DNA of 64,000 nucleotides from Apoderus coryli. Its lineage: Eukaryota; Arthropoda; Insecta; Coleoptera; Attelabidae. How positions within the stretch are numbered: position 1 is the stretch's first letter; every line of letters begins with the position of its first letter. Positions 4,589 to 62,339 of this stretch are shown here, piece by piece. The notes beneath the pieces were generated by a model. The model did no database searches, was not told the DNA's origin, and saw only the letters and a list, made by a program, of their open reading frames with translations. A program made the position numbers and the translations under genes. The DNA lies in assembly GCA_911728435.2 (NCBI GenBank), contig OU452202.1, forward strand, positions 17,649,135 through 17,713,134, in the 5' to 3' direction.

Positions 4589-5276
4589 GAAATAAAAAAA
4601 AAGTTATAATATAATCAAAAATATATGACCAGCGTAACGAAACAGAATTTTAATAATAATTAATATTATAAATTATATTATTTTCATTATTTCCAATAAA
4701 CTAACGTAATAAACTAACTACTTTATTCAAAAATTAGAAGAAAAAAAAAGTTTTGCCAGAGCTTGGATTCGAACCCGTAGCCTTTCGAATATGAAGCGAA
4801 GGCTCTACCAATGACGCCACACCAACTTTGAGAATTTTGTATTTTATTTGTAATATAGTTCCAACTACCTAACTGAAAATTTAAACGCTATTTTCTCGAG
4901 AATTATGAGGGCAAATATCAAAAGTCACTTATCGCTGTAAAGCAGATAAAAAATGCTTTGAAATGATGTTTCACTCGACCCCTACTGCTATATGAAAATT
5001 TAGCGGTTGTCTCCCCCTATCCCTATCACTTAAGCGATTTCAACCAAAAACTAATGAGTTTCTCCTAGGACTCCCCGAAACTCATAAACCAAAATTTAGC
5101 TCAATTGTTTAAAGCGTTTAGGTGCTATCGTGGAAGAATACATACAGACACACAGACAGAGACTTCCATCTGGAAATGGTCTTAATCGTCTCAAGAAACT
5201 TCAACTTATACCCGCCTTTATCTCTTTTTTTTTTTAGCGCATTCACATTACTTTCCCTGTGCGGGAAAGTAAAATG
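4589..5276 (-). repeat. Dispersed repeat B, copy 1 (with tRNA-like module)
   Basis: This matches, in reverse orientation, the sequences at 31990-32940 and 42731-43270. Shared blocks include the tRNA-like module, CTGCTTTACAGCGAT, TTCTTCCACGATAGC, GACTCCTAG and the CTGTCTGTGTGTCTGT stretch. The high-coordinate end carries a short palindrome, ACTTTCCCTGTGCGGGAAAGT less one base at each end, followed on the minus strand by GTGAATGCGCTAAAAAA. The same end recurs alone at 36768 and 51510. I cannot assign the family to a named class. No protein is encoded. Confidence 0.75.
4753..4823 (-). repeat. tRNA-like module in repeat B copy 1
   Basis: Read on the minus strand this has a D-arm/A-box-like start (GCGTCATTGGTAGAGC), an anticodon-arm-like hairpin and a T-arm with the B-box GGGTTCGAATCC. 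The acceptor ends do not pair, so it is not a working tRNA gene. It is one of three copies. Confidence 0.7.
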
Positions 5277-16805: not shown

Positions 16806-17165
16806 TAATTTCTTGGGGTTTTAGGTTATCAAAACACAAAATTCTATTAACGTTCACATGTTTAAAAATATATAATTTCACAAATTAAAAGTGCCCCTTC
16901 ATTCAACAAATATGCACGAAAAAAAAAAAGAACTTTGTGAAATTATATATTTTTAAACATGTGAACGTCGTCTTTTGTTTATATAAATGAATCGTATTGT
17001 CGTTTTTTTATTTTTCTGTGTGAATTTGGAAAGCCTGATGAAGGTGCAAATAATGGCACCGAAACGTCGTAATGTGGTGTAAATGATGATGTATTTGGAC
17101 AGCATAACAAACATGCGTTAACAGAATTTGGTGTTTTGAGAACCTAAAACCCCAAGAAATGGAAA
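16806..17165. repeat. Interrupted inverted repeat carrying a hammerhead-like motif
   Basis: Inner arms of 34 bp (16851-16884 and 16934-16967) are exact inverted copies starting CGTTCACATGTTTAAAAATA. Outer arms (16811-16852 and 17116-17160; GGGGTTTTAGG against CCTAAAACCCC) continue the same palindrome. The right side is interrupted by 16968-17115, which contains a hammerhead-like motif. The layout matches the larger inverted repeat at 47721-48652. Confidence 0.75.
17030..17076 (+). ncRNA. Hammerhead-like motif (weak stem I)
   Basis: It has CTGATGA at 17035-17041, a stem II of GGTGC/GCACC and GAAAC followed by the self-complementary ACGT that would form stem III. Stem I pairs poorly (GC with GT only). 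One unpaired A separates CTGATGA from stem II, as in the other Penelope-associated motifs here. Probably a degraded or dimer-dependent ribozyme. Confidence 0.45.
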
Positions 17166-19295: not shown

Positions 19296-19640
19296 ATTAA
19301 GCTATAAGCTATAAGCTCTTTGTAAATGTTGGAAATTTGGGTCACACTGCCTGCCGATCACCACTGATGAGTCGTGGATCGACGAAACGGCCGTCTGGTG
19401 AAAGCATAGTAGTGTGAAACAAATTTCCAACATAACTTAAAGTCTTGTTGCTTTATGTAACAAGCAATTCTTAAATAAAGCCTCCCTGCTAGGGGATTTG
19501 GGCTCATCTTGTGTTGGCAATAGGATATAATGGAGTTGTTACTTCTTGTCCGGCTATCGTTTGTGAACTGTGTTTCACCCGGCATATTGCCTGTTCACGC
19601 TAGGTGTCGCCAAAAACATCTCTCTCTCTCTCTCAATATT
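19296..19640 (+). mobile_element. Retrozyme-like hammerhead element, copy 1
   Basis: Layout on this strand: hammerhead segment (about 19311-19473), a 55 bp linker (19474-19528), then segment B (19529-19636) from TGGAGTTGTTACTTCTTGTC to a CT-rich tail. The copy at 32276-32565, read on its own sense strand, has the same two segments in the opposite order (B, then hammerhead). That is a circular permutation. The ribozyme is enclosed by longer flanking pairing, TGTTGGAAATTTG with CAAATTTCCAACA. No protein is encoded; such elements depend on other machinery. The retrozyme assignment is inferred from the ribozyme type, the size (about 345 bp for a combined unit) and the permuted order. Confidence 0.75.
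19358..19401 (+). ncRNA. Type I hammerhead ribozyme, copy 1
   Basis: Complete core: stem I TCACCA (19358-19363) with TGGTGA (19396-19401); CTGATGA (19364-19370); stem II GTCG-TGGAT-CGAC (19371-19383); GAAA (19384-19387); stem III ACGG/CCGT with no loop (19387-19394); cleavage after C at 19395 (GTC triplet). Every invariant core residue is present. The very short, self-complementary stem III is typical of hammerheads in metazoan retroelements, which often work as dimers. The same 44 nt sequence is found inverted at 32353-32396. Confidence 0.9.
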
Positions 19641-27150: not shown

Positions 27151-27679
27151 AAATTGGACTAAATCATTGCTACACATAGGACATACTTAAATATGAGAAC
27201 ATTAGCGCCACAGTTAGTTCGTAAGGTTCGAAAAAGAAACATATCCAGGACATATTACTTTTTCCAACCGAACGCAGAAATAACGTCATTACTACCAATA
27301 TAGTAATAACAGGATATGTTCCTCTCTCGCGCAAATCGACGTATTTACCCTTAAAAATTGATTTTGGCCGAAACTAGTGAAATAACAAAAATATGGACAT
27401 GTACCCTTTTCCAAATAACCGATTCAATTATAACTCTCAAGTATTCTACATTATTAATCTAATTGTGAAAACCTTTGCACTCGTTCAAAATTAATATGTT
27501 GATTTAACGATGTAATCCATATACTTGAACATAAATACGATGAGTTAAAAGTATTGAATTGACTAGGTGCTGTTAAACTAGAAACTAGGTATATTCATTA
27601 TCACTATCACTGTTTTTCATTATATAAATAGCTTTCAAACCTTCAAAATTAGGGAAATAATTTGAACGGTCTGCTATGG

Positions 27680-27770
27680 TGATTTTTCATAACCGATGCT
27701 GCTTTTGTCATTACCAGGAAATTTACCCGTGCATTTTAAATATTTCCCACTAGTTGCCCAGCCACTAGTA
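27680..27770 (+). repeat. Dispersed repeat C, short copy
   Basis: It matches the end of repeat C (CTTTTGTCATTACCAGGAAA, then ATATTTCCCACTAGTTGCCC). Together with the inverted copy at 27960 it flanks the foldback at 27773-27949. Confidence 0.65.
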
Positions 27771-27772
27771 GA

Positions 27773-27949
27773 AAATGATAAACAGCATTACAATGTACAA
27801 CATTTTCAAATTATGATTGAACATATAATAAAGACATTTAAAGACAGTTGTAGAAAAAAGTAATTTTTCTACGACTGTCTTTAAATGCCTTTATTATATG
27901 TTCAATCATGATTTGAAAATGTAGTACATTGTAATGCTGTTTATCATTT
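27773..27949. repeat. Near-perfect foldback, about 86 bp arms
   Basis: 27773-27858 and 27864-27949 are inverted copies with few mismatches (AAATGATAAACAGCATTACA at one end, its complement at the other) and a spacer of about 5 bp. The arms lie between oppositely oriented copies of repeat C, so the whole of 27680-28455 is a larger palindrome built around this hairpin. Confidence 0.85.
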
Positions 27950-27950
27950 A

Positions 27951-28455
27951 CCCGTGCGTAATAATATTTCCCACTAGTTACCTAGCAACTACTGGGAAAT
28001 ATTATTACGCACGGATAAAATTTCCTGGTAATGACAAAAGTAGCGGCGGGCATGAAAAATCACCATAGAAACGCCGAAAATACAAACACCAAATTGACAC
28101 TTTTGGTATTTATAATTAATAATAATTATAATTAAGTATTTCGCTAATTTCAGAACACATAAACAGTGATAGTGAATATAGTTTAACACCACCTAGTCAA
28201 TTAAATACTTCTAATTTATCGTATTTAGGCTTATACGCTAACAAGGGTAAGTTTCGAAAAACAAATATTTTCCTAAAAATTATGTTAAATTTATTCAAAA
28301 GCATTAAAACAGTCGTAGAAAAAGTATAGTGTGAAACTCACATGAAATGACCAGTTCCTACTCGTATGATTTGCATTTGCGGCTCATGCTGCAAACGATC
28401 ATACTCGTAGGAAATATATGTCATTTCATGTTCGTTGCACAATATACTATTTCAA
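27951..28455 (-). repeat. Dispersed repeat C, copy 2, with terminal hairpin
   Basis: Reverse complement of the copy at 12477-12935 over nearly the whole length. At its low-coordinate end, CCGTGCGTAATAATATTTCC (27952-27971) pairs with GGAAATATTATTACGCACGG (27995-28014) to form a hairpin with a loop of about 23 bases. No protein is encoded. Confidence 0.75.
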
Positions 28456-31540: not shown

Positions 31541-32275
31541 TCTTGTCTTTTTCTTTGGTCTCGATATTGCTTATTTTGAACATTATTATAGAAAAATCGT
31601 AGTTTCGATTTCAATTAATTATTTTTCCTCAATTTTATGTATGTCATTTTACGGCAACACGCAGTAACACTCTGACGAAAATCTAGACCCTTTTGATATC
31701 AATAACATGCTTTCTGGCGTGTTTAAACGTGTTTAAGCGTGTTTTTGGCGTCTGACAACACATCACCGTAATCAGTGCGGGTCTACTTAACATAATGCAA
31801 TAGATATTTGGATACATGTTAACACGTGTTAACACGTCTCGTGTTAAGAATGTGTCCGTACCTTAACTCAAGACAAGTGGACAGAATAGACCATCAGGTC
31901 GCAGTGTGATTTTAATCTTAATCTTAGTATTTTTTACCGTGAGAGATGCAAGATAAATTTTGAGATAAACAGTAAAAATACTTGAAGGATTGAGATAAAT
32001 ACGGATATAACCATTTTGAAGATGCTTGAGACAATTAAGACAATTTACAGATGAAAGTCTGCCTGTCTGTGTGTCTGTATGTCTGTATGTATTCTTCCAC
32101 GATAGCGGCTAAACGCTTTAACCAATTGAGCTGAATTTTGGTGTGTGAGTTTGGGGGACTCCTAGCACGAACCCATTAGTTTTTGGTTGAAATCCCTGTA
32201 GCCCTGTGATAGGGGTGGACACAACCGCCAAATTTCCAAATAGCAGCAAGAGTCGAGAGATTTTTAAGCATTTTT

Positions 32276-32565
32276 GTACCTAAGAATTGCTTGTTACATA
32301 AAGCAACAAGACTTTAAGTTATGTTGGAAATTTGTTTCACACTACCATGCTTTCACCAGACGGCCGTTTCGTCGATCCACGACTCATCAGTGGTGATCGG
32401 CAGGCAGTGTGATCAAATTTCCAACATTTTCAAAGAGCTTATACTAGCACGAGAATTGATTGAGAGAGAGATGTTTTTGGCGACACCTAGCGTGAACAGG
32501 CAATATGCCGGGTGAAACACAGTTCACAAACGATGGCCGGACAAGAAGTAACAACTCCATTATTA
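32276..32565 (-). mobile_element. Retrozyme-like hammerhead element, copy 2
   Basis: On the minus strand the order is segment B (32565-32460), an 18 bp linker, then the hammerhead segment (32441-32276). It ends at CAAGCAATTCTTA, where copy 1 continues into its 55 bp linker and segment B. Segment sequences are nearly identical to copy 1, while order is swapped. It sits inside repeat B, so both ends are bounded by known sequence. The flanks AAGCATTTTT and ATTTTATCTGC hint at a short A/T target duplication, but no clean one can be defined. Confidence 0.75.
32353..32396 (-). ncRNA. Type I hammerhead ribozyme, copy 2
   Basis: On the minus strand it has TCACCA, CTGATGA, GTCG-TGGAT-CGAC, GAAA, ACGGCCGT, C and TGGTGA, identical to the core at 19358-19401. 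Two unlinked loci keeping the same intact ribozyme argue against chance. It is antisense to the tRNA-like module of the host repeat. Confidence 0.9.
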
Positions 32566-32710
32566 TTTTATCTGCTTTACAGCGATGGGTTACTTGCGAT
32601 ATTTGCTCGCATAAATCTCGAGAAAATTGCGTTAAAATTTTAACCACTTAGGTAGTTGGAACCTATAACTCTTATTAGAATATAATAAAGTAATTTGATA
32701 AAGGGTTTTT

Positions 32711-32776
32711 GGGCGTCATTGATAGAGCGTGCGCCTCGCATGCAGAAGGTTCTGAGTTCGAATCCCAGCTCTGGCA
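32711..32776 (+). repeat. tRNA-like module in repeat B copy 2
   Basis: It reads GGGCGTCATTGATAGAGC, an anticodon-type loop CCTCGCA (TCG in the centre, Arg-like), and a T-arm with GAGTTCGAATCCC. The ends do not form an acceptor stem, so this is a tRNA-derived part of a repeat and not a gene. It is the best preserved of the three. Confidence 0.7.
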
Positions 32777-32940
32777 ATATTTTTTTTTCTATTTTGAATA
32801 AAGTAGTTAGTTTGTTACGTGAGTTTATTGGAAATAATTATTAAAATTTTGTTTCGTTACGCAGGTTATATATTTTTGATTACATTATATTATATCTTGT
32901 CGGGAAAGTTTTGAGGCGACACAACCGATTTTTGTTACTT

Positions 32941-41159: not shown

Positions 41160-42730
41160 AATCACAGAAGTCCTCATAATAAGCTGAATTCAAACATCCA
41201 TACATCAATCACTGAATTTTTTTTTTCTGTTTTTTTTTTTGTTAAAAAAAAAAAACATTATATAACCAAAATAAAAATTAATTAAAATTTAGATCATGCG
41301 TATCTATGGAAACAATACTTTTCCGCACGTATGTATATGCGAATTTTCGTTCATAAAATCTTTTGGATTCACCCTGTATATGTTTATACCTCTTTACTAT
41401 TTTATTTTCTTAATCTTGATCACTTATTTGCAAATCTCTATAACGACATTGTCGTTTCTCCGAAGCAGCAGAGAGAGTACAGAATCATATCCAAACCAGT
41501 GTAAGTATCTACAGTTTTCACAAGAACAGGTAGGTATTCTCTGCACTACCTAACAATAATAATAATAATACTAAAGAGATAAAAAAAAAACCAATAAAAA
41601 CATAAGGCATAATAACATACGCACATGTGGCAGAGCATACGCTCGATACCGCTGTTGATGCTTTCTCATTTCACAAACAAAACTTCTCCTGCTGTCGCCG
41701 TGTAAACTGTGCTCTTTATAGTAGCAGGAACTCGTTTTGCGTAGAGCGAGGCGCGCGATTTTATTTCGGTTCTTAAGATTTACGGAAAATATTGTTTTAA
41801 TAACAAGGTTTTAGAAGGCAGAACGTCGTTAGCTTTTTGTGCATTAATATTTAGAGAGTGATTGAAATTTAATACCTGATGTATATTTGGATTTCAAACG
41901 GAACGCAGCATCATTTCCTGGTAAGTGTTAAGAGATATGGTTCTTATATGAAAATATTAAAAATCAGACACTGGTCTTGACGACCTATTTTAAACTGTGG
42001 CTACAAAAATGCAATAGCAGATTTACTAGACAATAAAAGGGATCACGAAGCCCCTTTAGAGCCCGATACAGGGATGCTGCAACCGCACTATTATACGCCA
42101 ATTTGTTTTTCATTTTTGACCCAAATATGTAAAATTAACTTTCAATTATTATAACTATATTTTATTAAAATAAATGATAAAACATATTAGCAATAACACG
42201 ATAATTTTGTGGCTTTTCTATCGAAAATGTCTAGACATGCGCATTTACAAGTTTCGCCATCTGAAGCTAGCATTTAAATTTAGGTAAAGGTAAAATAGAA
42301 TTTCTCTAAGGGTACAACCTGAATGATTATGACCAGTATAAACTCTTACTTACAGAAATTTTGCAATTTCTGTTGAAATCATATTTGTAACTCTATTATA
42401 AATTTTTTCAATAGTAGTAGTAGTAGTTATTGAAACAAATTTGTTAAAAGAAAAAACAATAATAATGTGTTCACCTCCCTGCAAAATTATATCTAGTTTA
42501 AGATGAGAGGATCCACATTTCATGTCCCAGACATATTGTAAGGTTTACATTAGCTTCTCGAATTACATGGTAACAACAGCCATATGAGGTCGCACATTCT
42601 ATTGTCTACTGGATCATGGTATATTGCAATTATTGAAGGTAAGGTAAGACAATAAATAGTAACACGTTATTATTGTAGGACTAAGCGTTCATGATGAGTA
42701 AAAAATTTGCAAACTTGATACGAGTATAAT
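41160..42730. other. No gene recognised
   Basis: AT-rich with A and T homopolymers near 41220-41260. An 85-codon frame at 41296 is within chance expectation. Nothing shared with other parts of the window was seen. Confidence 0.3.
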
Positions 42731-43270
42731 AACAAAAAATCGGTTGAGTTGCCCCAAAACTTTCCCGACAAGATATAATGTAATCTAAAATATATGACTT
42801 ATATATTAGTTATTATTGTAATTGTATTATTTTTATTATTTCCAATAAACTTATCTAAAAAACTCAAACATTTGAAATAAACAAGAAATGCAAGACCAGG
42901 GATTTGAACAGAGGACCTTCCGCATGCAAGCGCACGCTGTAGGTACCAATGATGACACCGACGCTTATACAAATTACTTTACTATATAATAAGAGATATA
43001 TTACCAACTGCCGAACTGGAGAAATTTTAAACGCAATTTTCTCAAGCACTATGAAGGTAAAATTCAAAAGTAACCTATTGCTGTAAAGCAGATAAAAAAA
43101 TGCTTTGAAGTGATGTATCACTCGACCCCTACTGTTATTAAAGAATATGGGGATTGTGTGCACTCCCATCACAGGTTCATCCTAGGACTCCCCCAAACCC
43201 ATATGCCAAAGCCAAAATTTAGCTCAATTTTTTGAAGCGTTTAGGCCCTATCGTGAAAGAATATATACAG
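42731..43270 (-). repeat. Dispersed repeat B, copy 3
   Basis: Minus-strand copy: AAAATCGGTTGAGTTGCCCC, CTTTCCCGACAAGATATAAT, the tRNA-like module, GCTGTAAAGCAGATAAAAAA, then CCTATCGTGAAAGAATATA. It breaks off inside the TATACAGACAG block, where the mariner fragment at 43270 begins. Confidence 0.75.
42890..42964 (-). repeat. tRNA-like module in repeat B copy 3
   Basis: Read on the minus strand: GCGTCGGTGTCATCATTGGT, an anticodon-like hairpin GCGTGCG...CGCATGC, and CTGTTCAAATCC as a weaker B box. It is more diverged than the other two copies. Confidence 0.6.
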
Positions 43271-44090
43271 ACAGAAAACCATTGATGCTATGCGCGAACT
43301 GACATTGAAAGATCGTCATGTGACCTATCAAGAGATTGAGACAACCTTAGGCATTAGTGTGACCAGCATACATACAATATTGCACAAACATTTGACTGTC
43401 AAAAAAATTTGTTCGCGTTGGATCCCACACAATTTGTCAAAATCAATCAAAAAAAAAGCTCGTGTCGACTGGTCGAAAGAAATGCTCAAAAAATACGATC
43501 GCGGTGGTGCGAAACACGTCTACGACATCGTGACAGGTGGTGAATCGTGGATTTACGCGTATGAGCCCGAAAGTAAACAACAGTCGACTGTATGGGTGTT
43601 TCAAGATGAGCCAAATCCAACAAAAGTTGTTTGCGCACGAAGCACTTCCAAGCAAATGGTCGCCTGTTTTTTCGGAAAAACTGGACATGTCGCAACCGTA
43701 CCCAACCATTTGTTTGCCAGTTCTCTTCCAAGAAATCAGGAAAACCAACCGCCGAAGACGGATCACTCTTCATCACGACAATGCGAGCTCTCACACATCG
43801 GCTCAAACAACTGCATTTTTGAGCACCCAAAACATCGATTTGATGAGTCATCCGCCGTATAGTCCTGACTTGGCACCGAATGACTTCTTTTTATTCCCGT
43901 ACGTAAAAAACAAACTGAGAGGTCAACGCTTTTCGACACCTGAAGAAGCGGTTGCTGCATTCAGAATGCATGTTTTAGAGATACCTTCCTCAATCAGAGT
44001 GGCAATTGGTTCAAACGCATGCAAAAGTGTATAGATCTTCATGGGGAATATTTTGAAAAACAATAAAGTGATTTTCGATGATTAATATTT
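43270..44090 (+). pseudogene. 5'-truncated DD34D mariner transposase
   Basis: It starts at about the middle of the DNA-binding domain (MRELTLKDRHVTYQEIETTL), so the first 90 or so residues are missing. Then KKICSRWIPHNLSKSIKKKA, VTGGESWIYAYEPESKQQS, a frameshift after KTGHVATVP, LHHDNASSHTSAQTTAFL (second Asp) and PPYSPDLAPNDFFLF (third Asp, spacing 34). A further shift precedes CIDLHGEYFEKQ and the stop at 44066. The first catalytic Asp is Gly (TGGESW for TGDESW). Overlapping minus-strand frames are shadows. It joins repeat B copy 3 directly. Confidence 0.85.
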
Positions 44091-45171: not shown

Positions 45172-47257
45172 CAGGGTGGTCCAACGAAAAGTTTGCACCT
45201 AGCTTTTCTCTTTTTTTTGTAGTCGAATGCGAAAATGCTCGGACACGTCGATTTTGCTTTTGAGGGGGACACATTTTAAACATATTTTTCGATCTGCGCC
45301 TTTACCCCCTAGCGGGGGTGAGTAACAACCCTAACATTTTAAATGGAAAGAGGGGTCTAATGACATATCATTTGAAAGGACACAAAATTGTCTTTCTAAT
45401 GATACCCTATTTGTCGAATTTTACTAAAACAGTTAATACGAAAACGACTTTAAAGACATTAAGCCGATAATTTTGGTATTAATGAGAAATACAAATAAGT
45501 TTTAATTATTGCGAGTGAAAACACCTGCAATCGTTAGTACATTCCAATGTTTGTTAGTTTTAACATTGCTTTGTAAAAAAAGTAAACAAGCTGTTAAATT
45601 GATTTATTAAAACGTTACATTAACAAATGTTGAAAATGTGACCCATTTGATTCCATACAATAATACAGATTTTGTTCAAATCTATTTCTAACATTTTGTA
45701 GCATATCAGGTGTTATGTTTCTGCACTCTTCTGTAATGCGTTGGCGAAGATCTTCTATGGACTCGGGCTTCGTGGCAAAACATTTATTTTTTAAGTGCCC
45801 CCAAAGAAAAAAGTCTAAAGGCGATAAATCCGGTGACCTGGCAGGCCATTCAATTGGGCCCCTCCTTCCAATCCACCGTCCAGGGAACCGGTCATCTAAG
45901 AACTGTCTTACAGGAGCCACATAGTGCGGAGGTGCTCCATCTTGCTGGAAATAAAGCCGATCAGCAGTATGATTTTGGTCATCTTCTATTATTTGTGTTA
46001 TTAAAGGATCAATTGTGTCTTCAAGCATGTTTAGGTACACTTCACCAGTTAAATTTCCAGGAATAAAAAGTGGTCCTATAATATGATTTCCTAATATGCC
46101 ACACCAGACGTTTATTTTTTGAGGATACTGGGTATGAACCTCACGGAATAAATGTGGGTTACTGTCATCCCAGTAACGGCAATTGTGCCTATTTACAGCT
46201 CCATTCAAATAAAATGTGCATTCGTCGGAAAAACAAATGTTAAATAATAATTGCGGATCTTCAATTAAACGCTGGCTCATTGCTTCACAAAATTGCAGCC
46301 TTCTATCAGGATCATCCTCATTTAGTTCCTGTACTAATTTGATTTTGTACGGATGAAATTTGTACGCTTTTAAAATTCGTATTATGGACGAACGGGAGAC
46401 ACCTGAGGCTTCAGCTAGTTGACGGGTACTTTGACTATGATCCATTTCAACATGCCCTAAAACAGCGACTTCCACAGCTTCATTTCTGATCGGTTTCTGC
46501 GGCTGGTGTTTTACATTACAGACAGATCCGGTATCTACAAACTTTTTAACTAACTTGCCAACGTACACATCATTCACATTTTTATCGGGATGTCTCTCAT
46601 TAAATAAGCGAGCCGTAAGTCTAGCACTACTATTATTTTGAAAATAAAGTTTAACAATTTCAACTCGTTCTAGAATGGAATAAATCATTTTGTACGGTAA
46701 AAGTAAAATAACTTGAGAAGCAACCAAACTGAATCAATGAAAAGACTAAAATAAACAGTGTAAATTCTTTTCCTACACGTATCTGCAGTTTTTATTTCAA
46801 CAAAAAACGCAAACGATTAGTGAGGAATTTAGTTCTGATAAATAAGATAGTGTTTTTGAAATCCCGTTTTTCTTCAAAGTAAATAATTTAGAAATGATTG
46901 TAGTTGTTTTCAGTCGTAATAATTAAAACTTATTTGTATTTCTCATTAATACCAAAATTATCGGCTTAATGTCTTTAAAGTCGTTTTCGTATTAACTGTT
47001 TTAGTAAAATTCGACAAATAGGGTATCATTAGAAAGACAATTTTGTGTCCTTTCAAATGATATGTCATTAGACCCCTCTTTCCATTTAAAATTTTAGGGT
47101 TGTTACTCACCCCCGCTAGGGGGTTAAAGGCGCAGATCGAAAAATATGTTTAAAATGTGTCCCCCTCAAAAGCAAAATCGACGTGTCCGAGCATTTTCGC
47201 ATTCGACTACAAAAAAAAGAGAAAAGCTAGGTGCAAACTTTTCGTTGGACCACCCTG
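45172..47257 (-). mobile_element. Apparently intact DD41D transposon with 340 bp terminal repeats
   Basis: The element starts CAGGGTGGTCCAACGAAAAG and ends in its complement, with TA on each side (45170-45171; 47258-47259). The left repeat is 45172-45510 and the right 46918-47257. Comparing them by eye, I find one single-base length difference (in the CCTTTA(A)CCCCC tract) and one substitution over about 340 bp. They enclose one uninterrupted transposase. This is a young insertion and the best candidate for an autonomous element in the window. Such long repeats are unusual for mariner-like elements. Confidence 0.9.
45615..46688 (-). CDS. DD41D Tc1/mariner transposase, full length (357 aa)
   Basis: Start chosen at ATG 46688 (MIYSILERVEIVKLYFQNNS), which aligns with the usual N-terminus; an upstream in-frame ATG at 46727 would add 13 residues. 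Residues 1-110 form the helix-turn-helix DNA-binding region. The catalytic triad is D155 in ICFSDECTFYLNG, D250 in YFQQDGAPPHYVA and D292 in RSPDLSPLDFFLWG; the last two are 41 residues apart. The C-terminus reads NLYYCMESNGSHFQHLLM. The product would bind the terminal repeats and cut and paste at TA. No stop, frameshift or missing key residue. The chance of an open frame this long in AT-rich DNA is negligible. Confidence 0.93.
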   Translation of the reverse strand: MIYSILERVEIVKLYFQNNSSARLTARLFNERHPDKNVNDVYVGKLVKKFVDTGSVCNVKHQPQKPIRNEAVEVAVLGHVEMDHSQSTRQLAEASGVSRSSIIRILKAYKFHPYKIKLVQELNEDDPDRRLQFCEAMSQRLIEDPQLLFNICFSDECTFYLNGAVNRHNCRYWDDSNPHLFREVHTQYPQKINVWCGILGNHIIGPLFIPGNLTGEVYLNMLEDTIDPLITQIIEDDQNHTADRLYFQQDGAPPHYVAPVRQFLDDRFPGRWIGRRGPIEWPARSPDLSPLDFFLWGHLKNKCFATKPESIEDLRQRITEECRNITPDMLQNVRNRFEQNLYYCMESNGSHFQHLLM

Positions 47258-47526: not shown

Positions 47527-47813
47527 TATATGTTAAATATCTTGAAATGTTGGTTAAAAAAAATTAAATAATTTGTTTAACAGCATTAATGGGGCGATTG
47601 GCAAAAAATGTGTCACATATTTACGAAAACAGTTCAAAGTTCTCATAAAATGACTATTTTTGAGATAGAAATCACTTAATGAAAGTTACCTTATAGTAAA
47701 ATTTTCTAATGATTTCAGATTTATTTTTTTATCCTTTCTTTGGGTTCTGGTTCGTATCAAAAATTAAAACACCTTCCTATATGTTTTGAAATAACATTGT
47801 CATAATTTTATTT

Positions 47814-47860
47814 TTTATACTACGTTTCGGCAATGTTTTTGCCTTCTTCAGGTACATATA
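47814..47860 (-). ncRNA. Hammerhead-like motif
   Basis: On the minus strand: TGTAC, CTGAAGA (variable core position A), a spare A, stem II GGC/GCC around AAAAACATT, GAA, ACGT, A, GTATA. Stem I pairs over five positions with one G-T. It has the same layout as the other Penelope-associated motifs. Confidence 0.45.
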
Positions 47861-48015
47861 ATCTATAATCATACTTCTTAATTACAAAAAAACAGGACGA
47901 AAACATAACACATATATATTCATATTGAAATAATAAAATAATTGTAAATAGGAAATAAAACGTCAAACTCCACGAAATCAATTTAATACATCACACTTAA
48001 TGTGTTAGGTCGATT

Positions 48016-48064
48016 AAACTACCATACATGTTTCGAAGCTCGCTAGCTTCATCATCAGTTTTAA
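48016..48064 (-). ncRNA. Hammerhead-like motif, left arm (stem I lost)
   Basis: On the minus strand: CTGATGA, T, GAAGC-TAGCGA-GCTTC, GAA, ACATGT, A, TGGTAGT. The upstream half of stem I reads TTAAAA instead of TTACCA, so stem I cannot form as in the right-arm copy. Probably inactive alone. Confidence 0.45.
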
Positions 48065-48401
48065 TATTTTTAGAGAAACTGTATTTTGAAAGTATTACAT
48101 CATTAGGAGTACTTTAAGAGTAATGTGTCGAAGTCACCTCGAGGAAAAATATTATTAATTGGTTATTATATTACGTTTTATGGTTTTCTTTTTATTTATC
48201 ATCTCGACTATTAAATTAAAATTAAAAAAAAAAAGTTTATTAGTCGAGATGATAAATAAAAAGAAAACCATAAAATGTAATATAATAATTATATTTTATT
48301 CTCATTAACAATTAATATTTTTCCTCGAGGTGACTTCGACACATTACTCTTAAAGTACTCATAATGATATAATACTTTCAAAATACAGTTTCTCTACAAA
48401 T

Positions 48402-48450
48402 ATTACCACTGATGATGAAGCTAGCAAGCTTCGAAACATGTATGGTAGTT
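48402..48450 (+). ncRNA. Hammerhead-like motif, right arm
   Basis: ATTACCA pairs with TGGTAGT (one G-T) as stem I. CTGATGA is at 48409-48415; after a spare T, stem II is GAAGC/GCTTC; then GAA, self-complementary ACATGT, and A as the cleavage-site base. All invariant core residues are present apart from the one extra base before stem II. Confidence 0.55.
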
Positions 48451-48652
48451 TAATCGACCTAACACATTAAGTGTGATGTATTAAATTAATTTCGTGGAGT
48501 TTGAAGTTTTATTTCTTATTTACAATACATTCACTCCACTTAAGAATGGACTACTTCTTTAAAATTAATAAAACAATTGTTTATTGTGGATATTCAAATA
48601 CTAATACTACTTTTTGATACGAACCAGAACCCAAAGAAAGAATAAAAAAATA

Positions 48653-51509
48653 AACATAATAAAAGGTTCAAGAAAAATAAAAAACAAATTTTAGAGCCCG
48701 CAAACGTTTTTTTTGACATAAAACGATTTACGCTGTACTTTCAAACAGACTTAGGTACCGATTCAAACTTTTCCCAATAATATTTGCATTTTGTACGTGA
48801 GAGATTTTTTAAATTAATAATATATTTTTTTAAATCCTAAATAACGAGCCGCAATATTAATTTTGGTTGCTCCAAGGATTTTTTAAAATTATTAGCAATT
48901 GTTTGTTTTTAATCAAAAGTAATTCTAAACTCGACTAATCCTATATTTGATTGATTGATTCTTGTAGAATCATCACTCTGTTAATACCTAAATCACCCGG
49001 TATTCCTCTGTCAAGGTACGTACAGAGTAAAAGTTAAGTAAAATTAAACTACATACACATGCATACATTTCAAAGAATATAACTAAGCGGTACAAATAAA
49101 TTATTATAATTGAAACGAACTACTATTTATATTATACCTTTAGGTATTTTCAATGCCACAGATAAAATCTAATAATTCACATGAATTATTTGTTGTTTTT
49201 ATTAACAAGTGTCCCAGAAAACAAACTCTATACTTAATATCAATATTTATATAGGTCTAAATTAATATTTATTTATTATTTTAATAACATTTACCGTAAT
49301 AATTACACAATTAGGTATATCTATTTAAGTTACTGGCAGACTAACTTAATAAATATATATGATTTGCATTAATTTGTGGTATAATTACTCAAATAGCGGT
49401 TTTAATAAGTTTATCCGCAGTATAAGAGATCGACATTGTTAATATTGAATAAAATTTTCACTACTTGGGTAAAATTTAGCAGTATCATAGTCCATTAAAT
49501 CTCAGATATTATTCTTAATAAAATCATAGGAACAGCAGTTAGTTAGTTATCAAGATTATGTGTACATTAATGCAGTAAAGGAGAAAGTTGTGAACAACTC
49601 TCCTAAAGTATGAATAATCCTTAAATATTATTTATCTCGCAGAAATCTAACACTATATCAAGAACACATGATTTTCTATATTTTTTATGAATAAAAATGC
49701 AGTTTTCACTATCATCTTGCAAAACCACAGGCGTAGCATAGAGGTTCTGAAGCAAATTTATTTGAAAAAGAGATTTATAAATATAAACTACATTTTTACC
49801 ATTTATTGGCCTTAGAATACGTGGTATGCATAAGCAAATGTTTGTTTACAAAAATGACTTTATTATTTTGAAAATGCTTCAAAAACTACTCCTTTAACTT
49901 CTGTAAAGGATAAGATAAAACATTTCTTGAAGCATTTCAAGTCATAGAAAAATAAATTGGTTAAAAAATATCACATAATCGATAAATGGTTACGGGAATA
50001 TTGTCAAATTAAATTAACGACTATCAAACAATGCAGGTTCTATATTAATTATCGATTTTTCTGCTACGAAATCCTTATTTACTATTTTAAGTTGTTACAA
50101 AGCACCTAATTTAAGATATATTGGCGAGGATATTGGATAATGTTTTGATAATTATTAATGTTGAGGCTGGTCAAATAATAAGATTAAAAATTAAATGAAG
50201 TTTACCCTGAAAAATCAACGTGCTTTGGAACTGTCACCATTCTTTTCAAATTTAAATTACAAATAACAATGCCGGAGAGCTTAAATTATACTTATTTTTT
50301 TTTAAATTTATTGTAGATGTAACAAACTTTTATCAACAACATGATGTGACATATTTGATAATAGAAACTCAGACCAAAAGAAACTGACAGTGAACAGTGA
50401 AAAAAAAATAATTAAAAAATTCTAAAATTTTGAATCTGTTAAAAAACAAAAGAAAAGCTATTGTTTATGATGAAAATGTCAAAATTGCGGTTTTGTGACA
50501 CCCGAAAGTAACTGAAAGAAAATCTTATTGCGTTTAGGGCCTCGCACAGTGAGGTATTTGGCCAACATAAAATATAAAAATAAAAATATATAAAAAAAAA
50601 ACTATACCTAAATGATCTTCAAAATAACATATGTCCTGTAAAAATGAGTACTGATATCGAAAAAATATTTTAGCGAGAACAGATTACAGATTATTTAAAA
50701 TACTGTAGTTTCAACATGTAATTTAAAATTTATAACATTGTTTTATAATTAACTGTTTTACTAAGGTAAGTAATTTCTATATTTTAAAACAAAAAAAAAA
50801 TCATTCTTAAAACACATGCATTATGGATAATTTACATGATTAACATGTGCGTTTAAGTGTCGTGAAACCGTTAGTAGAGGTTTTTTTCTTTTTAAATTAA
50901 ACAAAATATCACTGCAGTAAACGTTTGTATTTATGGCAAATGCTAATTTATTTTGCATGTTATTCAACTAAAAATTAGTGAACAAATTACTTGTTCAGGT
51001 GTTGTTGGATTAGATTCTACTTTCCATCTCTGTATTCTGTCTTAATAAATTTAATTTTATTTATTTCACATCCGTTGAAATCGAAAACAAATACACGAAA
51101 AAAGAACGACAAAAACCGTTGATACGGTCTATTGCAATTTACGTTATTATTGCTAAAGAATTATTATTATAAGTTTATTGACGATAAAATAAAAAGTAGA
51201 TGGACTGACTGGACTGGACATGATATGGATGTTTACGTCGAAAGTTGGTGTTCTACTAATCAAAGTCAGCAAGCATATATTTTCACTCACTACTATGCGA
51301 TATTATTGAGAGTAACTAAAAGAGTCATATTATATCTTTATACATTTTTTATATCTAATTAAATATGGTGCCAAACCTTGTTTTACCAATATTCTGGTTG
51401 GTATAGCGGTTCTACTTCTACTTCTAAAATGTTTTAACTCCTTTGAGTTAAAACGAAAAAATGCTTTCTTACTTTTTCCGTTAGAAACTGCCCAATATGT
51501 TGCTTTCCC
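48653..51509. other. AT-rich spacer, nothing identified
   Basis: About 2.9 kb with no coding frame above chance length, no transposon domain, and no repeat shared with the window that I could see. Confidence 0.35.
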
Positions 51510-51605: not shown

Positions 51606-51999
51606 ATGTGTTAAAACATGAGTACAAAAATTCTACGTTTATTTTTTTAAAAGGACTTTTTCCAACTTATGAGTTTTCATTTGATACACATGTGTTGGTT
51701 GACAACTGACGAAAAAAGTTTAAGCAATATGGCAACCTTTAGATTTACAAAGTAAAAACATATAGGCTGCTTTCTTTCTCTCATTTTTAACGTTATTATT
51801 ATGTAGAAACATAAATAATTTACAGTACAGTTTTATGAAATACATGTGCACTCTCCTAGATCTCATGTATTTTTATTATTAACTTTATATTTGATTACGT
51901 TATAATTAATTAAAATTAAAAACAGCTACCTATTATAAGGATAAAAAACTAGTTCTGTAAAGCACGACTAGTTTTGTGGATTATTTCATAATTTATCAT

Positions 52000-52880
52000 A
52001 ATTGCAGTAAAATAAAATGTACTGTTAAAATATGAAATAATTGAAAATTTAATAACTGCATAAAATAAAACAACTTTAGTTTTAAATATTTCCAAACTTT
52101 TATAATATACAAATTTATATTTCAAAATCACACGACATGTTTCGTCCACACAGTGGCTTTATCAAGTGTAACTTAAGACTAAAATACAAAATATTTATAT
52201 GGTTTATACAGGTAATAAAATACAGTAAAAGTGTAACAAAATGAAAACTAATAACTAGGTCACAGGTGCATAAAAACTACCTAGGGTTACAAAAATTAAA
52301 AGAGGTTTAACAAAGGGGAATTATTTAAATCTGTTTGGCTATTGAGTAATTTGTTAGAATATTTAAGTTTGTTTATTTCTAATGATTCTAAAAGATCCAG
52401 CTTTTTACTTTTGTTTTCTATATGAATAATTTTGAAATTATCGTTAAAATGATGATTATGTTCTAAAAGATGGTTAGAGTAATTAGAATTGTCTTTTTTC
52501 TTGATATAACTTAAGTACTGTTCCTTAATTCTTTCAGAAAAACTTCGACCTGTCTGTCCTATGTAAACCCGATCGCAGTCTCCACACGTCAGTTCATACA
52601 CTCCAGATTTTTCTCTCTTATCTATTTTTGATTTTGAATTTTTGATAATTTTTCCTATTGTATTGTTGGTTTTAAAAGCTATTTTTATATTATGTTGGTT
52701 AAAAAATTTTGAAATATAGGAACAATTATGGCCTGAGTAGGTAATTAAGCCATAATTTTGGGGATCTTTTGGGCTTTGAGGGAAAACAGTGTTGATTATT
52801 TTTTTGTAATTAATTTTGTTTAGGATTTTTTCTACTATTGTCGGTTGATAACCATTGTTTATTTAATTTAATAAATTATA
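52000..52880 (-). mobile_element. Penelope-like retroelement fragment with GIY-YIG domain
   Basis: Minus-strand frame open from about 52878 to the stop at 52296. It reads PTIVEKILNKINYKKIINTV, KIAFKTNNTIGKIIKN, then SGVYELTCGDCDRVYIGQTG and RSFSERIKE. The last part is the GIY-YIG endonuclease that Penelope-like elements carry after their reverse transcriptase, for cutting the target. Only the linker and endonuclease survive; the reverse transcriptase is truncated. Downstream at 52130-52172 is a degraded hammerhead-like motif (CTTGATAAAGCC, then GGACGAAACATGTC), as expected in the terminal repeat. Confidence 0.8.
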
Positions 52881-53842
52881 TACAAATATTATTTATTACA
52901 AATCAGTTAACATTTAATATTTACACATATGTGTACCTTCATTCTTTTTCGGCTTCATAATCAGTCAAATACAACTGTAGAAGCCAGTAAAATTTAGTAA
53001 TTTGTAGTTACATTCACTTTGATATTTTTAAATTAAAGGATTACAATTCTTGTTTTAATCAAAATAAACTTTTAATCTATTTAAAGGTTAATATCAAATT
53101 AGGGTAGGATTTTTTATAATAAAACTAATTTACATGAGTACTCAAGCAAAACAAAAACGGAATAAAGTTAAAATATATACACAAAACCTAAAATAACAGC
53201 TAAAACCATTACAGGGCGTCAGGGACACTTAAAAGAGGGAATTTTTAAACAAAAAATATAATTCAACTGGAGTATATTATTAATTCGTTCTTTTTCTATA
53301 GATATTACACAAAATCTTTGATATTCTTAAAATGACTTATTAAAGAAATTAAGAGTTCCCACACATTTGTACCTACTGCAACCGGTAGGTATATCCAATT
53401 TCGTTAAAGGAAATTGATATTAATTATATGTTAATTGTCGTTACACAACAATAAACGACACATCTAAATATGAGAAAATAATCAAAATATTATTTTTTTA
53501 ACAATCCAATTAAAATCTGGCTTTCACTTGTAAACAATAATTTTAATAATAATGAACCAATTGAAATAACAGTTTTTAAAGGATTCACGTGGTGTAGAGG
53601 TTGGCCTTAAGTCTACTGTTGCGGTTTATTCTAAGGTTATTAAATAATATTATTTGATTATAATTACAAACTAAATAAATTATTCTAATGAATTAAAAAT
53701 ACAGTCAGGTTTCTAGATTTGAAACTTTTATGAAAAGTGCCAGATGTAGCATGAATTGAAGACACAACACCTAATTAAAATCCACGTTTCATGATTTCTT
53801 GCGACTTTTCTAAGCATCTTTTATTTGAATGTCTCATATATA
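52881..53842. other. No gene recognised
   Basis: AT-rich with no coding frame or shared repeat seen. Confidence 0.3.
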
Positions 53843-54697
53843 CCGGGTGCCCCACCGGAAAGGGTTTCGATCGATTATGGAGAAACTACACTGTGGAACA
53901 ATCTGAAAGTCGGGCGTAGTACATGGTCGATTAGGCTAAAATGTTTTCAAGAATATAGTACGTCCGGTTATACATGAAGTGGGTGTCAACTTATTTCTTT
54001 TAAATATTTTTTATTATATGGAAGCTTTAATAATTGAATTTTTTGGGATATCCTAGTAATTATAGACCTACCTTAAGCGCCGATGTATATTTTTTTAATA
54101 AATATTAATACAGGGTATTTGAGAAAAAGCATATAAAATCAGATTGAAAAAAATGTCAAAATTCAAAGTTTCTAAATGACAACCCCAAATTTTTATATTA
54201 TAATTTTTTTCCATCAAAAATTAGGACAAGGATGTCTATTCCAAAAATTTATATAGTTTTCAAAATATTGACAATTTTACATCATGACCAACTAAAATCA
54301 ATTAAATTTCACAATCTTATCTTTTAATCTATTTGTAATAGAAAAATATAAAATTGTCAATATTATAAAAACCATAAATTTTAATTTGGATGCAAAAAAA
54401 TAATAAAATATTATTGAGCTTAAATTTCAAATATTTCGAAAACAGCTGGACATAGGTGGTATCACATATTATACATGAACTATCTTTAGAATTACAAGTA
54501 GAATCCAAAAACAAAATATAATTTATATAGGGTCGTATTTAAAATAAGGAAGTTGACACCCACTTCCGGTATAACTGGAAGTACTAGATTATTGAAAACA
54601 TTTTAGCTGAATTGGCCCTGTCGACCTAAGTACTACACTAGATTTTCAGATTGTATAGTTACTCCATAATCGATTGAAAGCCCTCCAGGTAGGACAT
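53843..54697. repeat. Foldback element D, copy 1
   Basis: The left end is CCGGGTGCCCCACCGGAAAG with ATCGATTATGGAG close behind; the right end carries the inverted counterpart (CTCCATAATCGATTGAAAG and beyond). The two halves are inverted copies through most of the length and meet near 54290-54320. No protein is encoded. It matches 60539-62152. Confidence 0.75.
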
Positions 54698-59200: not shown

Positions 59201-60538
59201 TTTACTTTTGTGATTTTTGTGAGAAAAAAGAATATTGCGAAAAACCCAAGGACACTTTTAATGATTTTTTCCCAAAAAGATGTACATTTTTTGACTGTGT
59301 TGGCTGCAGCTACACGCATTTGAAGTATTGCTATTTTTAAAGAACAGAAATAATAAAAATAAATTAATCTCCTTAAAATGAAAACCAACAATACTGTCAC
59401 TTAGTTTTAAAAAAAATCATTGGGGTTTTTAACAAAAACTAAGTTTTTTGTAAAATTACATAAATAAAAATTCCTCAAAAACGGTGAAGGACTTTATCGC
59501 AAATGACCTCCTCTTTCACGTCCTTTATTTTTGACTATAACTTATGCCCCATTTTAAAGCCAAGTTGATGGTATTTCAAGTAAATGCGCTACAAAATTAT
59601 GTCCCGTTTTTCCTTTTAAAAGAACGAAACCTATAAGAACAACTTTTTTAGTGTGATAAAATTGTATTTTCATCTAATTAGTACATTTTTACTCTCGCTA
59701 GTCCTCATGTGTACATATATAAAGTGAAAGTGATAAATATATACGTCGTCTAGTAGGTACTTATATTTAAGAAAACTTATAATTTTATTATTTTGAAAGA
59801 TTGTATTAACCTGCCGCATTCAGCAGCTGATGTGTTTTGTGCATAGAAGTCCTACTTATCGAGACACGCTTAAAATTTTAGGCTAAGCAAATACCAATTG
59901 GAAGAAAGTTTTTTTATTTCATGATTTACTTACTGCACGAGTATGATGTTTACGAGCAATTTTATGATGTTACTTTCTAGTACGTAGGTACCTATTTAGA
60001 TAAATTAAAAAAACAGTCAATCACGCAGTGGAACCACTAATTATAAAAGTGAGATGAAAGTATTTAGGTACCTACCGCAATACTTTTAAAACTTCGGAAG
60101 AATATAATCATGTACAGAATTAGCAAAATTTGATGGTTTATAAAACAAAACTAAGTAATATTACCAAAGATTACTAATATTTATGATGTAGTCTTTGATA
60201 TTACGCTTCATTTTTGAGTCATTTTTTTTATTTTTTGTTTCTTGGATGTCTCCTTTGGTATCAAAGGTAATTGAAAATAGATATCATAAAATTTAGGGGT
60301 AACGTATGTGAAATACATTGTAGAACCACGGAAAAATAAATATATACACTGTGTCCTATTTTGGTTGAGACTGCAGAGTATGTCAGCTGCTAATAAAAAT
60401 AAAGACTAGCGGTTTTTGCGACCCTGTACCATTTTTTGTGAAACTTTTAATGTGACAAACAGAATTCATCTAGCTTCTTTTGGTTCTGCGAGTTACAAGG
60501 TGAAAACGAAAATGTTCACCTTTTGGAGTGTTATAATA
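59201..60538. other. No gene recognised
   Basis: AT-rich. CTGTGTCCTATTTTGGTTGA at about 60351 may be a transposon end, but no partner was found. Confidence 0.3.
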
Positions 60539-62152
60539 CCGGGTGTCCCACCGGGAAGGGATTCGATCGATTATGGAGGAACTACACTGTGAAAGAATTT
60601 GAAAATCAGGTGTAGTCCGTAGGTCGACGGGACCAATTAGATTATACCGAATATGGATGTCAACTTCCTTATTTCAAATACTACCTTATATATATTATAT
60701 ATTTTTTGGATTCTCCTTGTAATTATAAACATATTTTATGCATAATATGTTATACCTATCTCCAGCCGTTTTAGATTTATTTGAAATTTTATGTCAAAAA
60801 TGACGTTTTCAGAATAAAGAATAATAACAATTTTTTATTATATGGAAGCTTCAATAATCTAATATTCTAGGAGATATAGACCTACTTTAGGCGCGTACGT
60901 ATTATTTTAATACAGGGTATTTTAAAAAAAAAAAAGAGTAAAAAATCAAATTGAAAAAAGTGTCAAAATTCAAAGATTTTAAATGGCAACCACCCATTTT
61001 ATATTTTTTTATTTTTTTACATCAAAAATAAGGGCAAGTTTATGAAAGGATGTCTATCCCAAAAACTGATAGTTTTCAAAATATTGCCAATTTTACATTT
61101 TTCTATTACAATAATGATATGAATTTGAAATTTAATCGATTTTAGTTGGCCATGATGACTTTAGAAAGGAAATAAATATGATGTGAAAAGTGTTTAGAAG
61201 TTTAAGGTCAAAATTTTGAACATTTGTTAAAGTAATTTTTTTATGAGTAGACCTTAGATAAGTTTGTATCATACGTTCACGCTATTAGTTAATCAAATTC
61301 TTCATAGACTCGAAATAATGTACCTATGATTAGTCTAACAACTTTTGGTGATGGTTTGTGTTTTTCTGGGTATTTGATAGCAAATGTTATCACACGTTCT
61401 TGTTATCACTCGGACACCCTCTCCATAAATAATAAACAAATTTAGATAGTATTCGTTACCATGATTATTACTACTAATTAATATCTACAATTTGTCATAA
61501 TTGTTGATTATTTTTGACAAGTGTCTTAGTTATTTGATTTCTAAAGCCATCATGGCCAACTAAAATCAATTAAATTTCAAATTCATATCACTATTGTAAT
61601 AGAAAAATGTAAAATTGTCAATATTTTGAAAACTATCAGTTTTTGGGATAGATATCCTTTCATAAACTTGCGCTTATTTTTGATGCAAAAAAATAAAAAA
61701 ATATTATTTTTTTTTCAAATACGCTGTATTAATATTTATTAAAAAAATACGTAGGCGCCTAAAGTAGGTCTATATCTCCTAGCATATTTTAACAAATTAG
61801 ATTATTAAAGCTTCCATATATTAAAAAATTGTTATTATTCTTTATTCTGAAAACGTCATTTATGACATAAAATTTCAAATATTACGAAAACGGCTGGAGA
61901 TAGGTATAACATATTATGCATGAAATATGTTTATAATTAGAAGGAGAATCCAAAAAAATTATAATTTATATAGAGTCGTATTTGAAATAAGGAAGTTGAC
62001 ACCCATTTCCGGTATAACCGGAAGTACTACAATCTTGAAAACATTTTAGCCGAATTTGTCCCGTCGACCTAAGTACTACACCAGATTTTCAGATTGTTTC
62101 ACAGTGTAGTTTCTCCATAATCGATCGAATCCCTTTCCGGTGGGACACCCGG
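60539..62152. repeat. Foldback element D, copy 2 (about 615 bp arms)
   Basis: Ends: CCGGGTGTCCCACCGGGAAG on the left; on the right the inverted form CTTTCCGGTGGGACACCCGG. Arms 60539-61161 and 61541-62152 are inverted copies; the inner boundaries are TTAGTTGGCCATGATGACTT and its counterpart near 61545. A unique core of about 380 bp separates them. Non-coding. Confidence 0.8.
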
Positions 62153-62339
62153 GATATCACATCCCATGGAAGATACTAAAAATGTGAAAACTGTTTTTGA
62201 TAAATATTTTTACACGGAATTCAATGGCGTATTCAAAAGGTTTTTTCAGGGCATCGTTTCTGAGATTGGACCGAAAGTTGGTATTTTTTTAAATAGAATA
62301 TCATATCAGTATTGCTGCCTTCTGACCCTTTTCGTAATC

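Follow-up and report, generated by a model that had tools for sequence, protein, structure and literature searches.

Hammerhead repeats of animals include newt satellite 2, schistosome Sm-alpha and cave cricket pDo500. As described in parts of PMC7229834 and PMC6155905, the repeats of newt, schistosome and cave cricket carry a type I hammerhead in repetitive DNA, are tandem or SINE-like, and in the newt the ribozyme acts as a dimer. Metazoan non-LTR retrozymes (Cervera and de la Pena 2020, PMC7229834) are characterised in passages of that paper as non-coding elements of 170-400 nt with a type I hammerhead, a G+C content under 45-50% and a stable fold; their sequences and sizes are species-specific, and insects and crustaceans are among their hosts. 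They are described there as tandem dimers to multimers, with target duplications, where present, of more than 4 bp (15 bp in Nematostella according to a passage of PMC4918200), and are reported to co-occur with Penelope-like elements. In the model given in parts of PMC7229834, PMC4918200 and PMC8490949, transcripts cut by the hammerhead are circularised, probably by a ligase, and are proposed to be circular templates for the reverse transcriptase (RT) of another element. For animal retrozymes, reverse transcription of circular RNA is treated in PMC7229834 as a model, with Penelope-like elements just a strong candidate for the enzyme.

The element described here was found as two copies in the window, by which we mean the whole 64-kb stretch of DNA that was analysed, which looks eukaryotic and probably comes from an arthropod. 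It resembles the metazoan non-LTR retrozymes in its type I hammerhead, size, low G+C, lack of coding capacity, stable fold and probable coexistence with a Penelope-like element. In contrast to the tandem dimers to multimers of PMC7229834, its copies are single, shorter than one unit and have differing breakpoints. With plant LTR retrozymes, as presented in parts of PMC4918200, it shares a proposed circular RNA template, giving cDNAs of variable length, and a short target duplication (4 bp in plants). However, those elements carry a type III hammerhead in LTRs, form circles of 600-800 nt and have a tRNA primer site, which should give them a fixed start. Penelope-like elements, according to passages of PMC11167929, likewise have a type I hammerhead, use AT-rich targets and act as dimers, but they encode RT and GIY-YIG domains, their hammerhead is minimal, and a preferred internal RT start leaves a common tail. 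The newt, schistosome and cave cricket repeats differ again in their tandem or SINE-like form, whereas the present copies lack a tRNA-type B box. A tRNA-type pol III SINE was rejected because this box is in neither copy.

Architecture of the two copies

Comparison of the two loci by BLAST divides them into the following parts.

19310-19473 (+): HHR segment of copy 1, an extended hairpin containing the type I hammerhead; 160/164 identical to copy 2
19474-19526 (+): linker 1, 53 nt, in copy 1 only; the gap between the matching segments
19527-19637 (+): segment B of copy 1 with a terminal CT run; 101/102 identical over 19527-19628; last matching bases about CTCTCAAT, ending at 19637 (end read by eye)
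32462-32563 (-): segment B of copy 2, first in the sense direction; BLAST match
32444-32461 (-): linker 2, in copy 2 only; 18 nt by alignment, of which about 15 have no counterpart in copy 1
32281-32443 (-): HHR segment of copy 2; BLAST match

Copy 1 runs from the HHR segment through its 53-nt linker to segment B, and copy 2 from segment B through a linker of 15-18 nt to the HHR segment. Between the two HHR segments (19310-19473 against 32443-32281 on the minus strand, E 2e-79) there are three mismatches and a single gap; all four differences lie outside the 44-nt ribozyme, which is identical between the copies. Segment B (19527-19628 against 32563-32462, minus strand) matches with E 2e-50. 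The divergence between the copies is about 2%, from which the element would appear to be young.

Local alignment of the two linear copies scores 150. With copy 1 doubled the score rises to 228, and a single run over 283 of the 288 nt of copy 2, with small indels, replaces two broken alignments. Moreover, rotation of copy 1 in 3-nt steps raises the global score from 98.4 (unrotated) to 239.6 at the best rotation. The two copies represent one unit of about 343 nt in circularly permuted form. This upholds the original prediction that near-identical segments occur in swapped order and that each copy carries a linker missing from the other. The bounds first drawn for copy 1 (19296-19640) are better placed at 19310-19637; copy 2 occupies about 32276-32564. 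Short AT-rich repeats ahead of copy 1 blur its start by several bases.

The breakpoints of the copies are complementary. The ends of copy 1 flank the short linker 2 of copy 2, where the roughly 15 nt without a counterpart in copy 1 sit between CTCTCAAT and TATAAGC, and the ends of copy 2 flank linker 1 of copy 1. Each copy falls short of a full lap of the unit, copy 1 by about 15 nt and copy 2 by 53 nt. This order of parts implies a repeated or circular precursor. Moreover, the ribozyme cut site is the terminus of neither copy, which argues for a template that was intact across that site, either a circle or an uncut multimer, and not a linear cut monomer.

The hammerhead ribozyme

Searched with an E-value limit, Rfam returned Hammerhead_1 (RF00163) once in each copy. 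Both scores are 0.2 bits below the gathering score of 34, and a search at the gathering threshold gave no match.

19358-19401 (+): type I hammerhead of copy 1, predicted cleavage after C19395; RF00163 33.8 bits, E 1.2e-4, and motif scans
32353-32396 (-): type I hammerhead of copy 2, predicted cleavage after the C at 32359; RF00163 33.8 bits, E 1.2e-4, and motif scans

A strict motif scan of the window found two motifs, those of the two copies only, against a mean of 0.01 and a maximum of 1 in 100 shuffles. On this count and on the segment identities (160/164 and 101/102) a chance match was rejected. The hammerhead is complete in both copies. Stem I has 6 bp and is continued by an outer stem, stem II has 4 bp, CUGAUGA and GAAA make up the core, and stem III is the palindrome ACGGCCGU, with a 4-bp palindromic half-stem. 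A complete type I ribozyme with a self-complementary stem III had been predicted, and both features are present. Stem III can form either 2 bp with a GGCC loop or eight continuous base pairs in a dimer. The Rfam Hammerhead_1 consensus is likewise drawn with a loopless stem III, and therefore a self-complementary stem of this kind is not unusual.

For the 44-nt core, the computed folds are -7.8 kcal/mol for the hammerhead monomer, -16.5 for the best monomer, which is inactive, and -34.5 for the hammerhead dimer. The energies thus point to the dimer rather than the monomer as the acting form, without demonstrating it. The suggestion that the ribozyme works as a dimer is to this extent supported, but a dimer that is not a hammerhead lies lower still, at -40.5 kcal/mol. 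In a 116-nt context the hammerhead is masked in the predicted minimum-energy fold, which reaches -54.6 kcal/mol, whereas a fold constrained to contain the ribozyme reaches -45.9, a cost of 8.7; these energies leave loop-loop contacts out of account.

The HHR segments are long hairpins (z -8.2 and -8.8, against 200 shuffles each). Folded as a circle, copy 1 reaches -99.7 kcal/mol compared with -73.5 +/- 5.7 in 100 shuffles, none of which was as low (lowest -88.9). Its paired fraction of 0.63 is hardly above the 0.59 of the shuffles and lies under the 'above 70 %' given in a passage of PMC4918200.

Insertion sites

Copy 2 interrupts an older repeat, relatives of which lie at 4605-5204 and 42730-43273; the pieces of this repeat are 73-92% identical, the longer ones 73-81%. 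Two uninterrupted relatives, near 4970 and 43100, supply the empty site of copy 2, a T tract. The empty site reads GCATTTTTTATC or GCATTTTTTTATC, and the filled site reads GCATTTTT, the insert, then ATTTTATC.

32269-32275 (no strand): left end of the copy 2 insertion, in host sequence CATTTTT; placed with the help of the two uninterrupted relatives just named
32565-32572 (no strand): right junction of the copy 2 insertion, host ATTTTATC; duplication of 2-5 bp, ambiguous in the T tract

The target duplication of copy 2 is AT and 2-5 bp long, depending on how the T tract is assigned, compared with the more than 4 bp and the 15 bp given in the passages of PMC7229834 and PMC4918200 cited above. 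In the sense direction the 3' end of copy 2 abuts an A tract, and therefore the complementary T-rich end could have been its primer. The final five bases before this junction, GGTAC in the sense direction, have no equivalent at this position of copy 1. The flanks of copy 1 share only short words and no duplication was assigned to them; the best common word, a 6-mer lying 24 nt beyond the element, counts for little in AT-rich DNA. Window self-matches with E up to 1e-5 include no long direct repeats flanking either copy.

Inside the repeat that is cut by copy 2, the stretch 32710-32780 (relatives near 4790 and 42930) is tRNA-like and contains the B-box-like GTTCGAATCC. ARAGORN called no tRNA there.

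Class of element and alternative explanations

We consider it probable, with good confidence, that the copies are two insertions, each of less than one unit, of a non-coding, non-autonomous metazoan non-LTR retrozyme that was reverse-transcribed from circular or multimeric RNA. This reading starts from three observations: a ribozyme motif is present, the copies are circularly permuted, and copy 2 has been inserted at a T tract within an older repeat. The unit of about 343 nt, the type I hammerhead, the G+C content of 0.43 for copy 1 (30.8% for the window) and the lack of coding capacity agree with metazoan retrozymes as described, so that the assignment made in the original prediction stands. 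Only short frames, of at most 78 codons, overlap either copy, and the longest stop-free frame overlapping copy 1 is antisense. A protein search with two chance reading frames of the element, including that of 78 codons, gave no candidate. The prediction was also right that retrozymes are known from plants and animals (described in parts of PMC4918200 and PMC7229834), and the element adds to an already known class.

In the cycle that we envisage, a tandem repeat of the unit would be transcribed, and hammerheads pairing through the palindromic stem III would cut the multimer into monomers, to be circularised by a host ligase. Reverse transcriptase would be supplied by an autonomous retroelement, perhaps a Penelope-like element. 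It would begin on the circle, or on an uncut multimer, at no fixed position, with a nicked AT-rich target as primer, and would halt just before completing one lap. Transcription, cleavage, circularisation, the enzyme and a circular rather than a multimeric template are the parts of this cycle that we infer; for these two copies, circular and linear multimeric templates make the identical prediction.

The more specific idea, that the retrozyme in this arthropod inserted as single laps of circular RNA whose start was not fixed, is put forward tentatively, as a serious possibility that falls short of being probable. If it is true, genomic copies would be permuted near-monomers, and their breakpoints would record where reverse transcription started and stopped on the circle. 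This would be a direct genomic trace of retrotransposition templated by circular RNA, distinct from the tandem-array state in other animals. In a family of permuted single laps, the start and stop points could be mapped from genome sequence alone, and once mapped would test for a match to the preferences of Penelope-like or other retroelements. With two copies known, both within the 64-kb window, the finding is a good lead and not yet a result. By title or the start of the abstract we found no report of permuted single copies, a search that does not prove their absence from print; the literature passages on 'permut' concern three ribozyme topologies.

Among the alternatives, the one that fares best places the source in a tandem satellite array, or in DNA circles from one, with unit-sized pieces of random ends being inserted by DNA repair or by reverse transcription of a linear multimer RNA; an RNA circle would then be unneeded. 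A piece of an array up to one unit long is by nature a permuted monomer, and both copies are shorter than one lap with different ends. Hammerhead repeats of newt, schistosome and cave cricket are known (parts of PMC7229834), and reintegration of circular DNA is mentioned for repeat elements in a passage of PMC8490949. However, such an array is absent from the window: none of the ten rows from Tandem Repeats Finder covers either copy, both of which are single. Moreover, the short AT duplication of copy 2 at a T tract suits target-primed copying, although repair of a staggered cut could match it. We regard a satellite source as unlikely, if still deserving of weight; its linear-multimer branch overlaps with the retrozyme reading, and the likelihoods of the two are not exclusive.

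We find it quite improbable that the segments are pseudo-LTR pieces of a Penelope-like element and the copies 5'-truncated Penelope insertions. Type I hammerheads, tandem occurrence and AT-rich targets with an ATT motif are all described for Penelope-like elements in parts of PMC11167929, and the end of a GIY-YIG ORF is present in the window. Truncated copies should have a common 3' tail, however, and the two 3' ends differ here. In copy 1, the frame that opens within the hammerhead runs only to about 19417, and comparison of the element with the region downstream of the GIY-YIG ORF gave no significant similarity. The 6-bp stem I, outer stem and 4-bp half-stem III also exceed the minimal Penelope-like motifs in passages of PMC7761336. 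A solo pseudo-LTR was rejected on the differing 3' ends and on the lack of an ORF, which 5'-truncated copies could also lack. Finally, a simple DNA rearrangement, by which a local duplication or swap reordered one copy of a family with a fixed linear order, accords with just two copies being known but would need segment B to move, 53 nt to be lost and a linker to be gained exactly at the two ends of copy 1 in an otherwise clean insertion, and it was rejected as highly improbable since each copy's two ends adjoin within the other copy.

Relatives, a Penelope-like remnant and other features of the window

Relatives of the retrozyme were sought in viral, prokaryotic, plasmid and protein collections, and none turned up there. 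Neither the exact HHR-core pattern with GGCC nor a 21-nt pattern from segment B occurred in the viral contigs or the genome contigs (0 in each collection), and blastn with the element found nothing in phages or plasmids. A generic hammerhead pattern matched at least 120 stretches in the viral contigs. Among the matches listed between these viral loci and the element, all but one fall on 26-36 nt round the ribozyme core, the other being 30 nt elsewhere, which suggests a common core with no kinship to the element shown.

A candidate for the helper lineage lies in the same window.

52299-52862 (-): probable 5'-truncated Penelope-like element, end of an ORF with GIY-YIG, candidate helper lineage; PF01541 E 4.5e-4, 20.9 bits

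The domain stands at the end of a 188-residue reading frame, and its match is 1.7 bits below the PF01541 cut-off of 22.6 bits. The frame is probably Penelope-like on the evidence of the GIY-YIG domain and of motif features that we take to be Penelope-like; RT is not part of this evidence. Parts of PMC7229834 report that retrozymes and Penelope-like elements occur together, and such a remnant agrees with this. A PDB sequence search with the GIY-YIG piece gave no match, and its single-sequence structure was uninformative (mean pLDDT 32). About 150 nt past the stop of this ORF, the stretch GGACGAAACATGTC (52147-52139) looks like half a decayed hammerhead; Rfam over 51900-52400 found nothing.

After further motifs had been seen by eye, the motif scan was widened post hoc so that the CUGANGA box could be followed by one additional base. 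With a stem I of at least 4 bp it gave five motifs, including both copies, against none in each of 200 shuffles, three of the five depending on the widening; with at least 2 bp, again post hoc, it gave six against a mean of 0.01 in shuffles. The small motifs from the widened scan are as follows.

48409-48442 (+): small hammerhead-like motif
47851-47821 (-): small hammerhead-like motif
41151-41122 (-): small hammerhead-like motif
17035-17068 (+): small hammerhead-like motif with a 2-bp stem I

All four carry a single additional base where the CUGANGA box passes into stem II, and their self-complementary stem III is very short; they form a recurrent variant. Weaker hammerhead-like motifs were seen by eye at 48058-48030 (-) and 33021-32995 (-). 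A large foldback occupies 47720-48654, with inverted arms of 214 nt (96%) and with nested 53-nt and outer 47-nt arms. Each of the 214-nt arms contains a hammerhead-like motif, one of them decayed.

Other repeats lie elsewhere in the window. The region 27532-28227 holds nested palindromes with arms of up to 86 nt, and gives Rfam miRNA matches on both strands that are below gathering scores and are probably an effect of hairpin shape. A related repeat family is found at 53837-54684 and 60525-62164, where blocks match in shuffled and inverted order. Lastly, a long transposase ORF with DUF4817 (45615-46727, minus strand, 370 aa) is perhaps intact and has a 97% identical relative in the protein database; 3118 relatives were found, and three of the 120 listed carry an organism's name, those of the scorpion Centruroides and the weevils Euwallacea and Anthonomus.
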